This document shows positions 4,547-9,308 of a stretch of 55,605 nucleotides of DNA, one piece after another. The translations under genes and the position numbers were made by a program. Within the stretch, counting starts at the first letter, position 1. The number at the start of each line of letters is the position of its first letter. Location: the NCBI GenBank assembly GCA_019358975.1, contig JAHHIL010000035.1, positions 1 through 55,605 of the forward strand, in the 5' to 3' direction. Under the pieces are notes generated by a model. The model had not been told where the DNA came from and made no database searches. It saw only the letters and a list, made by a program, of their open reading frames with translations. The stretch comes from Trichocoleus desertorum ATA4-8-CV12 (GTDB taxonomy: Bacteria > Cyanobacteriota > Cyanobacteriia > FACHB-46).

Positions 4547-6085
4547 TTAGAAATTATTAGAGATACTTTCTTTACCTCGACTGTAGAGCGTACGGGCATA
4601 TTCAGTCCACATTCCCTGACCCCAATAATGAAAACAACTGGTTTGGACTAACAGGTTGTAAAGGAGAGCTTGGCGGTAACGGGGCTGCTGAGTTAAGGCA
4701 GAGCTTAACGCACTAGGGTGAGGGTTAGCTTCGCCATTGCTTGATTGAGCTTCCAGGAGAGGATCAAGGGTTTGATGAAACAATGCACTGAGTTTCTGCA
4801 TGGAAGCCGAAACAGGCTCGTTGCCTTGGCCCCAGCGCAGGGCATGAGCCGAGGAAATCCCCTTTACCTGAAAACTAGGATTTTCTCGCTTGAGTTCGGT
4901 AATGGCTCGCGCGATCGCCTTGGGAGTCGCAGTTTCGGAGACTCGTTGCCAAATTTGGTACTGACCCTTGGCCTGACAAACTGGGTAATTCTCTGGGCTG
5001 CAACCTGCCGCCTCTATGAGTTCTAGATATTCGGTGCCCGTGAGGCCGACGACACCAAAGTGACCTTGGTTTTGGGCGCTCATGTCATACCAGGCATTTC
5101 TGAAAGTACTGGGAAACTCATTCATCATCATGCCGCTATTTTCGCCATCACCCATTTGAGCAACCAATGGCGGGATCATGACTTGACCCACGAGTTGCGG
5201 GTTGAGAGTTCTAGCTTCTTGGTAGGGCTGCATCTGCCCGACTAACTGATTGTCAGCACCTTGAGCTTTAATCAGGGCTGTGATGCTGACCGTTTCTCCC
5301 TCAGCGCTGCGGGCTACCAGTTGATGGGGGAGATGGGGCTGCGATAGCGGTTGGCCTGTGGTGGTTTCTACGGTATCTGCTTGGACGAGGAGCCAGCGAT
5401 AACCCGCTTCCTTTAGAGCTTTTACTAGTTCAAATAGCGTGTCAGGATGATTGGGGAGGTGCATTTCTGGTAGAGAAAATCCCTTCACTCGCGCTAAAGC
5501 ATCCCAGCCAAAAATAGCCGCAAAGTGATGTTGCCAAGCTTGAATATGCAGCTTCAAATCAGGAATTGGGGTAGTCGAGGCTAGCGCATGTCCCCAGAAA
5601 GTGCCGAGCCACTCCACATAAGGGTGGTAAGTGCGATCGCAAGTGATGCGCTTGAGGTTTTCTAAAATGTCTCCCCGACCCATCTGCCGCAACCCCCACA
5701 AAAGAGTGCCAGAGTAATCCAGCATGATGCGAGGATTGCAACCTTGACGCACCAGATCAATCATGAAGTCGGCAATGCGGCTGTAGCAGTAGGCAAAGGG
5801 ACCAGCATTGTGGTTATCTCCTTCATAAGGATGCTCAAACATATACTGCAAATTGCTGATCAGTTCTCCCTCTCGGCCTGCCGGAATCATGGGCTGGTGC
5901 ATGTGGAGGGCGATCGCAAAAGCAGCGGAGACATCCTGAAGGCGAATATTGGTTGTAGGTAGAAAAATTGGGCGATCGTGCTTCACCACCGATCGCACTT
6001 CTGCCTCCCAGCCAGAAATATTGGGCAATCCATCAATCAGTTCTGGAAGCAGCGGCAGACTAGCTGCTTGACTGAGGGCAGGCAT
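4547..6085 (-). CDS. Glycoside hydrolase family 57 protein
   Basis: A 512-residue protein of the GH57 alpha-glucan family. The conserved HMHQP motif is near residue 61, followed by NHNAGPFAYCYSRIADF. The GFSLPEMHLP segment near 205 contains the likely catalytic Glu. GH57 enzymes are retaining amylases, 4-alpha-glucanotransferases or branching enzymes, so a role in glycogen metabolism is plausible. The exact activity cannot be told, and no glg gene is close. It lies 108 nt downstream of DAHP synthase on the same strand with no clear terminator between, so some read-through is possible. Confidence 0.85.
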   Translation of the reverse strand: MPALSQAASLPLLPELIDGLPNISGWEAEVRSVVKHDRPIFLPTTNIRLQDVSAAFAIALHMHQPMIPAGREGELISNLQYMFEHPYEGDNHNAGPFAYCYSRIADFMIDLVRQGCNPRIMLDYSGTLLWGLRQMGRGDILENLKRITCDRTYHPYVEWLGTFWGHALASTTPIPDLKLHIQAWQHHFAAIFGWDALARVKGFSLPEMHLPNHPDTLFELVKALKEAGYRWLLVQADTVETTTGQPLSQPHLPHQLVARSAEGETVSITALIKAQGADNQLVGQMQPYQEARTLNPQLVGQVMIPPLVAQMGDGENSGMMMNEFPSTFRNAWYDMSAQNQGHFGVVGLTGTEYLELIEAAGCSPENYPVCQAKGQYQIWQRVSETATPKAIARAITELKRENPSFQVKGISSAHALRWGQGNEPVSASMQKLSALFHQTLDPLLEAQSSNGEANPHPSALSSALTQQPRYRQALLYNLLVQTSCFHYWGQGMWTEYARTLYSRGKESISNNF

Positions 6086-6193
6086 AAAGCTGAAGTCTCA
6101 TTTCAGGAGAATAAAGGCATATTCCTCCATATGCTGATCATGAGGCAAGTCTTTAGGGCAAGTCTTTGAAGTAAGTGTTTGGAATCTGTTTTG

Positions 6194-7072
6194 TTACTTA
6201 ACGCCCACCATTCCCGCCAAAACCGGAACTAGAGGACGGGTATTCATTTCTGCAATGCTTCGCCCAACCGCAGTCGCGATCGGTTTCAAGCTCGCTACTA
6301 GTTCCGCTATCTCTTCTAAGGAGAGGGCTTGGCGAGCATCTGAGACTGATTGCTCTGGTTCTGGGTGGCATTCAATGATCAGGCCATCAGCACCACAGGC
6401 GATCGCAGCTCTCGCTAGATCTGCCACTAGTTCTCGCTTTCCAGCGGCATGGCTGGGGTCAACAATGATCGGCAGATGGGTGATTTGCCTTAGGGCAGCA
6501 ACCGCACCCAAGTCGAGAACGTTACGGGTGTAGGGGTCGAAGCTGCGAATCCCGCGTTCGCACAACACGACATCGGGATTGCCGTGAGCCAGGATGTATT
6601 CTGCTGCCAGAACAAATTCCTCAATCGTGGCGGAGAGACCCCGCTTCAGCAAAATCGGTTTGCCTGCTTGACCCAGTGCTTTGAGCAAGTCGTAGTTCTG
6701 CATGTTGCGGCTACCAATCTGCAACATATCGGCATGAGCCGCAATTTCCTCGATCTGAGAAATGGCCATTACTTCAGTCACGACGGGCAAGTGGTAGCGT
6801 TGCCGCACTGCCTTCAGAATCTCCAACCCTTCCGCTCCCATGCCTTGGAAAGCGTAGGGAGAGGTACGAGGCTTGTAAACCCCACCCCGTAGCGCTTGAA
6901 TCGGAGCTGTGAGTAGGCGGCTAGCCACAGCTTCCATCTGGGCTAGGTTTTCCACAGTGCAAGGACCACCGACAATCAGCAGATCCTTACCTCCAACGGT
7001 CACGTGATCAGATAGTTGAATCACGCTTTTGTGGTTGGCGTGGGCTTTGCTAGCGAGTTTGGCATTTAACAT
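6194..7072 (-). CDS. aroF: 3-deoxy-7-phosphoheptulonate (DAHP) synthase, type I-beta
   Basis: A 292-residue enzyme that condenses phosphoenolpyruvate with erythrose 4-phosphate, the first committed step of the shikimate pathway. GGPCTVEN is at 35-42, RGGVYKPRTSPYAFQG near 61-76, LLKRG near 160, CERGIRSFDPYTRN near 190 and the VDPSHAAGKR metal/substrate site near 220. Only about 30 residues precede the barrel, so neither an N-terminal ferredoxin-like/ACT regulatory domain nor a fused chorismate mutase is present. The frame runs open to 7186, but the extension translates the terminator region, so the ATG at 7072 is used. The upstream RNA carries two aromatic leader peptides and terminators, suggesting attenuation control. 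Confidence 0.95.
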   Translation of the reverse strand: MLNAKLASKAHANHKSVIQLSDHVTVGGKDLLIVGGPCTVENLAQMEAVASRLLTAPIQALRGGVYKPRTSPYAFQGMGAEGLEILKAVRQRYHLPVVTEVMAISQIEEIAAHADMLQIGSRNMQNYDLLKALGQAGKPILLKRGLSATIEEFVLAAEYILAHGNPDVVLCERGIRSFDPYTRNVLDLGAVAALRQITHLPIIVDPSHAAGKRELVADLARAAIACGADGLIIECHPEPEQSVSDARQALSLEEIAELVASLKPIATAVGRSIAEMNTRPLVPVLAGMVGVK

Positions 7073-7108
7073 GGTGGGTCTCCGAGAGAGTAAGGATGGG
7101 TGGATAAC

Positions 7109-7140
7109 AAAAAACCCGGAACCTTGTGGAAGTTCCGGGT
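7109..7140 (-). terminator. Terminator T2 of the aroF attenuator
   Basis: Read on the minus strand, ACCCGGAAC (7132-7140), a nine-nt loop and GTTCCGGGT (7114-7122) form a perfect nine-pair stem followed directly by a T6 run. It stands 40-70 nt before the aroF ATG, so it can only be an attenuator and not the end of a gene transcript. The same left arm can pair instead with an upstream copy of GTTCCGGGT at 7167-7175. Confidence 0.88.
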
Positions 7141-7175
7141 CGTGCAGTGAGCAGCATAGCCACTTTACCCGGAAC
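7132..7175 (-). promoter_or_regulatory. Antiterminator pairing of the aroF attenuator
   Basis: The minus-strand segment AGTTCCGGGT (7167-7176) pairs without mismatch with ACCCGGAACT (7131-7140), and two more pairs including one G-U can be added. This excludes terminator T2, whose left arm is the same ACCCGGAAC. The first arm overlaps the stop codon of leader peptide 2 (7165-7167). A ribosome that reaches the stop would mask it, and one stalled on the aromatic codons would expose it. Pairings are read directly from sequence. The mechanism is inferred from the trp/phe/his attenuator paradigm. Confidence 0.75.
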
Positions 7176-7329
7176 TCCTGGTCCAAAAGTAAAAGCTATA
7201 AAACCAGCTACCCCAAAAAGAAAGACGCAGGTAGGAAATACGCTGCGTCTTCAAGGAGTCACCAAAGCTGCTGACACACAGGCTAGCTGCGGCCACTTGA
7301 GAAATTGCTTGGGTGCGGGGAGTCGTCAT
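7165..7329 (-). CDS. Aromatic leader peptide 2 of aroF
   Basis: A 54-codon frame from ATG 7327-7329 to TAA 7165-7167, upstream of aroF and on the same strand. Residues 38-49 read FWGSWFYSFYFW, nine aromatic residues in twelve, covering Phe, Tyr and Trp, the three end products of the aroF pathway. The last Trp codon is five codons before the stop. The stop overlaps the antiterminator arm, and terminator T2 follows. The N-terminal part has no recognisable domain. No strong ribosome-binding site precedes the ATG. A GTG at codon 12 or a TTG at 7383 could be the real start, so only the C-terminal half is secure. Confidence 0.72.
   Translation of the reverse strand: MTTPRTQAISQVAAASLCVSSFGDSLKTQRISYLRLSFWGSWFYSFYFWTRSSG
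7222..7251 (-). promoter_or_regulatory. Hairpin with U-rich tail inside leader 2
   Basis: On the minus strand AAGACGCAG (7243-7251) and CTGCGTCTT (7222-7230) form a perfect nine-pair stem with a 12-nt loop, followed by TCTTTTTGG. It lies within leader 2, immediately before the aromatic codon run. It could pause RNA polymerase so the ribosome catches up, as in the trp leader, or terminate untranslated transcripts. Function is inferred. Confidence 0.6.
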
Positions 7330-7373
7330 GAGTCTGGGTGCTGTCTGTATCTTATGTGAGTGAAATCTGTCCT

Positions 7374-7411
7374 TAAAAAGCAAAAGACCGCAGAGCCTCT
7401 TGTCTGCGGTC
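7374..7411 (-). terminator. Terminator T1 between the two aromatic leaders
   Basis: On the minus strand GACCGCAGA (7403-7411), an eight-nt loop and TCTGCGGTC (7386-7394) form a perfect nine-pair stem followed by CTTTTGCTTTTT-like tail sequence. It lies about 28 nt after the stop of leader peptide 1 and before leader 2, so it would interrupt the aroF leader transcript. A second, UUCG-capped stem lies just upstream at about 7413-7448. No duplicated arm equivalent to that of T2 was found. Confidence 0.75.
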
Positions 7412-7412
7412 C

Positions 7413-7448
7413 ACCTGGAGAATCAGCCGAAGCTGGATTCACTCCAAG
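7413..7448 (-). promoter_or_regulatory. UUCG-capped composite hairpin after leader peptide 1
   Basis: On the minus strand CACTTGGA pairs with TCCAGGTG (one G-U), enclosing GAAT/ATTC and CAGC-TTCG-GCTG. This gives a long stem interrupted only by small bulges. Its 5' arm covers the last codons and stop of leader peptide 1, and its 3' arm ends two nt before terminator T1. Translation of leader 1 to its stop would open it. Whether it favours or blocks T1 cannot be decided by eye. Confidence 0.6.
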
Positions 7449-7498
7449 TGAACCTCCATAAACCAAAAATAAAAGTAGCTGCTGCGAAGAGATAGCAT
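7439..7498 (-). CDS. Aromatic leader peptide 1 of aroF
   Basis: A 19-codon frame, ATG 7496-7498 to TGA 7439-7441, encoding MLSLRSSYFYFWFMEVHLE. Residues 8-13 are six consecutive aromatics (YFYFWF). It lies about 35 nt downstream of the predicted transcription start of the aroF leader and before terminator T1. An isolated six-aromatic run in a 19-codon frame upstream of an aromatic biosynthesis gene is hard to explain by chance. No clear ribosome-binding site is visible, which is common in cyanobacteria. Confidence 0.72.
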   Translation of the reverse strand: MLSLRSSYFYFWFMEVHLE

Positions 7499-7540
7499 CT
7501 GCGAAAAAATTTTTTGCTAGTTTTTAAGCTTTATGCCATG

Positions 7541-7570
7541 ACGCTAACAGAGAAAAACCAGCATCGTCAA
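7541..7570 (-). promoter_or_regulatory. Probable promoter of the aroF leader transcript
   Basis: On the minus strand TTGACG (7565-7570) is separated by 18 nt from TAGCGT (7541-7546). The -35 match is good and the -10 match moderate. Transcription would begin near 7534, about 35 nt before leader peptide 1 and about 460 nt before aroF. The HD-domain gene upstream ends at 7641, so an independent promoter is expected here. Confidence 0.5.
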
Positions 7571-7640
7571 CCCCTCATTTGGGGTAATTACTTTTGAGCT
7601 TGATGGAGGGGGGCGATCGCTCCTCTTCTAAACTCCTTCC

Positions 7641-8477
7641 TTAAATTGCTGCTGGGCCATGTTCTACAACAAAAACATTAGCGTAAAGATTGGCGATAAT
7701 TTGTTGGCCTTGTTGCGTTAATCGCAGATACGTGAGGGCGTTTTCTACGTAGCGGTAGACCACATTCCAGAAGAACTTTGGGTAGCCTTGCCGCAAGTCG
7801 CCAGGATGGTGATAACCCAAGTGTTTGTTGGTGCCGTTTTCTTCAAATTCGTAAAACAGCGCATTGATTTTTTGCAAATAACGAACATCACTCAGTTGAC
7901 CAATTAAATCTGCGGCTCTGAGCAAACCAGGGTAGTTAATTGTATCTTGATGGTCGCTATCGTTTGGCACCGGGAACCGGGTAAGTTCGATATTGCGCTT
8001 AATTTCTTCAGCGTCAATTAGTGGGTGTCCGCCGAACCGCTCCTCAATAAATAGCTTGCCGCGATCGATGTGGTAAGGCGTGAGACTGGCATCCGTGGCT
8101 CCGGGTGGTAGAGCAATCATCGTATCTCCGATGCCTGTAGCGTAGAGACCTGGGCGATCGCGACGGCAAACCCCTTTGATATAGCCAATGTCGTGGCAGA
8201 GCAGGGAGACCATGCAGTGCAGCCAATCGTCGCAAGAAACACCACCATCCCGGATATGCTTGCCCCGGAGAATTTCTTGCCCTACCAACGTAACCAGAAT
8301 CGTGTGCTCCACATTGTGATAGAGCGCATCGCTGTTGGCAATATTCTCCAGCGCCATACTGCCCACCCAGGCAATGATCTCCTGGTATTCAGATTTCCAA
8401 CTGCCATAGGTGCGTTGGTAGGCGCTTCTGAGTTGTTCTAAAAAGTTCTCAATTAAAAGTTCTGTGGCATTAAACAT
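7641..8477 (-). CDS. HD-domain metal-dependent phosphohydrolase
   Basis: A 278-residue cytoplasmic protein. The HD superfamily metal ligands are visible as YHNVEH (near 53-58) and the HD dyad in CHDIGYIKG (near 94). HD proteins hydrolyse phosphoester bonds of nucleotides or signalling molecules. The substrate is unknown here, and no partner domain is fused. It precedes the aroF leader on the same strand, but that leader has its own promoter. The SDR gene lies 120 nt upstream, also on the minus strand, too far to assert an operon. Confidence 0.82.
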   Translation of the reverse strand: MFNATELLIENFLEQLRSAYQRTYGSWKSEYQEIIAWVGSMALENIANSDALYHNVEHTILVTLVGQEILRGKHIRDGGVSCDDWLHCMVSLLCHDIGYIKGVCRRDRPGLYATGIGDTMIALPPGATDASLTPYHIDRGKLFIEERFGGHPLIDAEEIKRNIELTRFPVPNDSDHQDTINYPGLLRAADLIGQLSDVRYLQKINALFYEFEENGTNKHLGYHHPGDLRQGYPKFFWNVVYRYVENALTYLRLTQQGQQIIANLYANVFVVEHGPAAI

Positions 8478-8597
8478 GCTAGATTGCTATCTCCCAAACC
8501 CGCGATCGCCTTAGTGTCATTAAGCAGCCATGTCCTAAGTTTGCCCCAGCGATCATGGGTGAGCACAGAAATGGCTAAATCTCATCTGCAAGATGCC

Positions 8598-9308
8598 TTA
8601 CCAGGGAATGGGTTGGCGATCGCGAAAGAATCCGCCTGTAGGAGCACCATCTGGTAGAGTGGCTAACCAGGCGATCGTGTCTGCTCCTTGCTCTGGCGTA
8701 CGAGGGGCATCAGGGCCACCCATATCTGTTCTTACCCAACCGGGGCACACCGAATTCACTAAGATATTGCTCCCTTGCAACTCATCCGCCAGAATGCGGG
8801 TTAAAGCATTGAGAGCCGTTTTCGACATCCGATAACTGGGATAGCCACTGTTCATCTCGCTCAACTGCCCTGCTCCAGAAGCCACATTCACAACACGGCC
8901 ATATCCCTGCACCTGCATCAGCGGAATTAATGCTTGGGAAAGCAGAATCGGGCCATAAAGATTAGTCTGTAAGGTTTGTGTCAGTGTCTCGATTTGCAGA
9001 TTAAAGAGACTGCCATTGTCAAAATCAACGCCAATGCCAGCATTATTGACCAGAATTTCTAGATGACCAAACTGATCACGAACAAACTGGGCGAGTTGTT
9101 GCACACTGGCCGCATCAGTCACATCTAAGGAATGATACCCAACCTCCAAACCCTCAGACTGCAACCGCTCGACAACAACTTGCCCTTTGCGCTGATCACG
9201 ACTCGTGAGAATCACATAAACACCTTCCTTCGCTAATTGCCGCGACGTTTCCAAACCCAAACCTCGATTTGCACCCGTCACCACGGCAATTTTGCGATCG
9301 CTAGCCAT
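8598..9308 (-). CDS. Short-chain dehydrogenase/reductase (SDR)
   Basis: A 236-residue classical SDR. The Rossmann motif TGANRGLG is at 12-19, NNAG near 88, and the catalytic Ser and Tyr-x-x-x-Lys as VASGAG and YRMSK near 143-163. The length is typical. The family reduces or oxidises carbonyls and alcohols with NAD(P)H. The TGxxxGLG motif and missing fused domains resemble carbonyl-reductase-like members, but the substrate is unknown. The ATG at 9308 has AGGAGGGG three nt upstream, the strongest ribosome-binding site in this part of the window. Confidence 0.9.
   Translation of the reverse strand: MASDRKIAVVTGANRGLGLETSRQLAKEGVYVILTSRDQRKGQVVVERLQSEGLEVGYHSLDVTDAASVQQLAQFVRDQFGHLEILVNNAGIGVDFDNGSLFNLQIETLTQTLQTNLYGPILLSQALIPLMQVQGYGRVVNVASGAGQLSEMNSGYPSYRMSKTALNALTRILADELQGSNILVNSVCPGWVRTDMGGPDAPRTPEQGADTIAWLATLPDGAPTGGFFRDRQPIPW

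Follow-up and report, generated by a model that had tools for sequence, protein, structure and literature searches.

Transcription attenuation by a translated leader is best known from the trp, pheA and his systems of E. coli, in which a short open reading frame (ORF) rich in codons for the end product of the pathway has its stop beside or inside an antiterminator arm, and this arm competes with an intrinsic terminator before a biosynthetic gene. The nearest tandem arrangement is that of Salmonella mgtCBR, where one mRNA leader contains two short ORFs with separate sets of alternative structures; these ORFs, mgtM and mgtP, sense different signals, ATP and proline, respectively (PMC3641672). 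Comparative genomics has also uncovered leader peptides outside Proteobacteria, in Actinobacteria (PMC1262725) and, as histidine leaders of hisS paralogues, in Firmicutes (PMC2965389). Cyanobacteria are not mentioned in a 2010 survey of premature terminators, which states that leader peptides were by then recognized only in Proteobacteria and Actinobacteria (PMC2965389); according to a 2016 paper, attenuation in cyanobacteria lacked reliable data (PMC4833913). The earlier note on this DNA knew of no such attenuator described from a cyanobacterium; a literature search has now found none either, with most subscription journals outside its scope, and an earlier description remains possible.

The region preceding aroF, a gene for 3-deoxy-D-arabino-heptulosonate 7-phosphate (DAHP) synthase, in a 55,605-nt stretch of Trichocoleus desertorum DNA (the window) follows the same layout as the E. 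coli systems. It differs from them in phylum, in having a DAHP synthase gene as its target, in combining all three aromatic residues in each leader and in carrying two units in series; nor does the element match any Rfam family, a cmscan of positions 6000..8600 with E values up to 5 returning no riboswitch, T-box or amino acid leader family. Unlike the two ORFs of mgtCBR, both aroF leaders are aromatic and their target is an enzyme of the aromatic pathway. As with the actinobacterial and hisS-paralogue leaders, the evidence is comparative-genomic and comes from outside Proteobacteria, but those leaders belong to other phyla and other genes. What is new is therefore the phylum, the gene and the pairing of two same-signal attenuators in series, while the mechanism itself is of the trp/his type. 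On the evidence of sequence comparison, we are highly confident in reading the 5' leader of the aroF mRNA as two putative ribosome-mediated attenuators in series that sense charged Phe, Tyr and Trp tRNAs.

The earlier note had described a single attenuator directly before aroF, all elements of which lie on the minus strand. Its 54-codon frame is present and contains FWGSWFYSFYFW, in which nine of 12 residues are aromatic; no other among the ca. 67,500 12-codon windows in the six frames of the 55.6-kb window reaches that number. As had also been stated, GTTCCGGGT (7175-7167) overlaps the first base of the stop of this frame, here called leader 2. In many relatives the leader 2 ORF looks nearer to 20 codons. 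The proposed terminator before aroF (7141-7113) exists, although its stem has 12 pairs rather than the 9 claimed; together with its U-rich tail it lies 35 nt before the aroF ATG. The antiterminator was said to be at least as strong as the terminator, in agreement with its 12 pairs and a predicted −25.8 versus −20.8 kcal/mol. A third terminator-like hairpin, formed by GAAGACGCAG and CTGCGTCTTT and followed by CTTTTT (7252-7215, minus strand), was observed inside the long leader 2 ORF. It is conserved in each of the three genomes of the genus, and among the 176 loci with two leaders no other was seen to have such a hairpin between its units; a role in pausing or as a fail-safe terminator is possible.

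The earlier note missed a second complete unit of leader, antiterminator and terminator, located upstream of the one it described (7498-7375, minus strand). It was noticed on reading the regions upstream of aroF in relatives, almost all of which have a second aromatic leader. A promoter-like site is thus followed by two successive units, each a leader with its antiterminator/terminator, and then by aroF. The hairpin of antiterminator 1 (7454-7442 with 7420-7408) has a predicted energy of −28.2 kcal/mol, its inner hairpin included. The inference of trp/phe/his-type logic in the earlier note is supported by the comparative data but was incomplete, since there are two attenuators in tandem. A TTGAC motif occurs no more than 200 nt before the leader 1 stop in 184 of 190 loci, and this similar distance suggests that one promoter probably serves both units. 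A stricter TTGAC-N15-19-TANNNT-type pattern was observed in 86 of 185 loci against 3.7 expected; the promoter-like site of the window itself misses the strict pattern, its −10 element having been read by eye.

Features of the aroF region in the window, listed in the direction of transcription
Feature	Positions	Strand	Details
Promoter-like site	7541..7570	-	TTGACG (7570-7565), 18-nt spacer, TAGCGT (7546-7541); no mapped start site
Leader peptide 1 ORF	7439..7498	-	MLSLRSSYFYFWFMEVHLE, 19 codons and stop; leader 1 recognized by the script in 190 of the 207 regions preceding aroF
Antiterminator 1, 5' arm	7442..7454	-	GGUUCACUUGGAG; ends at leader 1 stop; 13 pairs
Antiterminator 1, 3' arm	7408..7420	-	CUCCAGGUGGACC; GGACC common to 5' arm of terminator 1
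Terminator 1	7375..7412	-	10-bp stem 7412-7403 / 7394-7385, then T-rich tract 7384-7375; −17.9 kcal/mol
Leader peptide 2 ORF	7165..7329	-	54 codons, MTTPRT...LSFWGSWFYSFYFWTRSSG and stop; aromatic C-terminal part conserved in relatives
Antiterminator 2, 5' arm	7167..7178	-	GGAGUUCCGGGU; ends on first base of leader 2 stop
Antiterminator 2, 3' arm	7128..7140	-	ACCCGGAACUUCC; overlaps nearly all of 5' arm of terminator 2
Terminator 2	7107..7141	-	12-bp stem 7141-7130 / 7124-7113 and U-rich tail
aroF, DAHP synthase type I-beta	6194..7072	-	292 aa, catalytic domain only; NF006421 E=1.7e-118, TIGR01361 E=7.4e-106

Conserved aromatic frames and compensatory changes in relatives had been named in the earlier note as evidence that would support its reading, and both are found. 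The sample comprised 207 usable regions from upstream of aroF orthologues (protein identity 65-98%), gathered from named genomes and from further genomes of the class, with upstream stretches added for the more distant ones. A script recognized both attenuators in 176 regions and a single one in 29 (attenuator 1 in 14, attenuator 2 in 15), leaving 2 regions without either. Both of these last regions show leaders by eye, and several of the single-attenuator cases are misses of the script and not true absences. Aromatic codons occupy fixed positions before each stop: codons −7 to −12 of leader 1 are aromatic in 92% of cases (70 representatives), and for the seven codons counted in leader 2 the share is 88% (non-redundant set). 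Variants that change the residue stay aromatic in 78% of cases for leader 1 and 71% for leader 2, and Phe, Tyr and Trp are all present in 186 of 190 first leaders and 182 of 191 second leaders. An upstream ORF at a conserved place and enriched in codons for the pathway product, as expected of an attenuator, is therefore present. A Shine-Dalgarno sequence precedes leader 2 in just 22 of 191 loci, so that its initiation is uncertain in the absence of an obvious site in most loci; many cyanobacterial genes likewise lack a Shine-Dalgarno sequence. In three Calothrix-related loci (L107, L111 and L201) the leader 2 frame does not end at its usual stop but extends as a longer frame (GIDSGHRNV...), and attenuator 2 may for this reason be altered or degrading there.

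Compensatory changes are seen in both terminators and both antiterminators, with the best covariation evidence for attenuator 1 and the 8-bp core of antiterminator 2. For antiterminator 1 (70 sequences), 90.7% of cells are paired, 9 of the 13 pairs have changed on both sides and the covariation score is 0.306 compared with 0.157 in shuffles. The corresponding values are 98% of cells paired and 5 of 10 pairs changed on both sides for terminator 1 (70 representatives), and 86.3% and 9 of 12 for terminator 2 (85 representatives). Antiterminator 2 (85 sequences) is kept in 79.2% of cells overall and in 93.1% within its 8-bp core, the outer pairs being poorly kept; on one of five measures, that of pairs changed on both sides, it did not exceed shuffles (169/500). 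When arms were swapped among species, the own partner paired better than the partners from other species in both attenuators, and none of 2,000 permutations was as good. The antiterminator is at least as stable as the terminator in 70/70 loci for attenuator 1 and in 64/85 for attenuator 2; by simple folding, antiterminator 2 is weaker than its terminator in the other 21 of 85. It is important to note that kin sequences can beat shuffles even without structure, and because these sequences are related the stem counts support the pairings but do not alone prove them. Sequence and conservation together place an intrinsic terminator between leader ORF and first structural gene, and a mutually exclusive antiterminator is strongly supported for attenuator 1 and, for attenuator 2, by the core and the swap test, not by the outer pairs.

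The element is tied to one gene. Covariance models of the two attenuators find no strong match in the genome of the window other than the aroF locus, the second model giving one more, weak match (E=0.027). Across 390 genomes of the class there is about one copy per genome, in 145 genomes for model 1 and 143 for model 2, representing 72 and 73 of 160 genera, respectively. Six genomes with a model 1 match lack a strong aroF match: in three of them aroF nevertheless follows; in a fourth the contig ends after the match, with leader 2 still visible; the fifth match borders the remnant of a deleted aroF, and the sixth is weak and has no aroF. Copies before other genes were considered and rejected, the inspected off-target matches being aroF contigs, contig ends, remnants or weak matches. 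Aromatic leaders were found in none of 31 regions upstream of paralogous DAHP synthase genes, and the leader 1 model found nothing in 18 genomes of a sister class. Two contigs labelled Candidatus Obscuribacterales/Obscuribacter (L103 and L104) carry both leaders and aroF; if that sister class is indeed theirs, this may reflect misbinning or horizontal transfer. Traces of decay were also seen. In locus L251 (G030:C48) leader 1 passes straight into a deleted aroF remnant, a case of gene decay with the attenuator partly kept, and in L256 (G588:C109) a relic of attenuator 2, its leader broken by a premature stop, precedes an unrelated gene whose product by eye resembles an SPFH-type membrane protein.

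The enzyme was noted earlier to have no visible regulatory domain, and domain searches agree: the aroF product has PF00793 without the Pfam FXD domain, which is present in the paralogue. The nearest solved structure to the aroF product by sequence is 1vs1, of the Aeropyrum type. The paralogue encoded in the same genome, with its ferredoxin-like FXD regulatory domain, is a full-length match to the Thermotoga enzyme 1rzm. The FXD domain confers feedback inhibition in the Thermotoga enzyme. Since FXD is found in the paralogue and not in the attenuated enzyme, the enzyme without a protein switch is the one with RNA switches.

In the proposed mechanism, when aromatics are plentiful the ribosome would reach the leader 1 stop and hide the antiterminator arm that ends there; terminator 1 would then form and RNA polymerase would stop after ca. 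155 nt. When any of Phe, Tyr or Trp is scarce, the ribosome would stall on the aromatic codons some 7-14 codons before the stop and leave the arm free, so that antiterminator 1 would replace terminator 1 and polymerase would continue. The same choice would be made again at leader 2, immediately before aroF. Because each leader holds all three residues, a shortage of any single aromatic should cause read-through, and the responses are inferred to multiply, since read-through of both units would be needed to reach aroF. The geometry is suitable, with arms that end at or on the stop and aromatic codons at −7 to −14; with the usual ribosome footprint, a ribosome at the stop would mask the arm and one at the aromatic codons would expose most of it. 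Both leaders, their terminators and competing antiterminators, their conservation and the tie to one gene are supported by sequence and comparison; translation of the leaders, folding controlled by stalling, termination in vivo, the amino acid response and the two-step series gate are inferences without experimental evidence.

Other explanations of the same elements can be weighed against this scheme. Two stable terminators would, by inference, free short RNAs of ca. 155 and ca. 430 nt, and a trans role has been reported for the leader peptide peTrpL of Sinorhizobium meliloti (PMC7298713). The terminated leaders could accordingly be mainly trans-acting small RNAs or micropeptides, with control of aroF secondary. 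We regard this as unlikely, as selection acts on the alternative pairings and on the aromatic class, within which F, Y and W interchange, rather than on a fixed peptide, and as the element occurs only with aroF and decays once aroF is lost. Free exchange of Phe, Tyr and Trp, together with the varying spacing of the runs, is also unlike the fixed motif of a TnaC-like nascent-peptide arrest, in which a free aromatic amino acid, bound by the leader peptide within the ribosome, would halt translation. The long aromatic stretches close to the stop codon would suit such an arrest, but if an excess amino acid caused it, a biosynthetic gene would be expressed more strongly when its product is plentiful, and we give this possibility slightly less weight still. 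A chance aromatic frame next to unregulated terminators could be imagined because the genome has short aromatic runs at other places too (5 pattern matches, 4 of them without a terminator after the frame). It is hardly tenable, being refuted by conservation and covariation over ca. 200 loci and by the 0/31 result for the paralogues.

Ribosome-mediated attenuation in series thus remains the preferred reading, and in its broader form, a cyanobacteria-wide, gene-specific pair of same-signal attenuators controlling a DAHP synthase without an allosteric domain, we consider it reasonably likely. Ribosome and polymerase must be closely coupled for attenuation to work. Such coupling is uncertain in cyanobacteria, and translation-independent mRNA localisation in these organisms is cited in a review (PMC7858274). 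A search for Rho in the genome of the window gave nothing above the curated cut-off; the single weak match, of 20 bits, is probably a related ATPase, and coupling would hence have to work without Rho.

If the reading is true, cyanobacteria would gain their first solid example of transcription attenuation that senses amino acids. Transcription and translation would then have to be tightly coupled at aroF, in organisms that have no recognisable Rho. The two stages would multiply and give a sharper response than one, and the attenuators would be an easy point of intervention for cyanobacterial engineering aimed at higher aromatic output. It would also point to a division of labour between the two DAHP synthases, in which the paralogue retains a protein regulatory domain and the attenuated enzyme is under RNA control.
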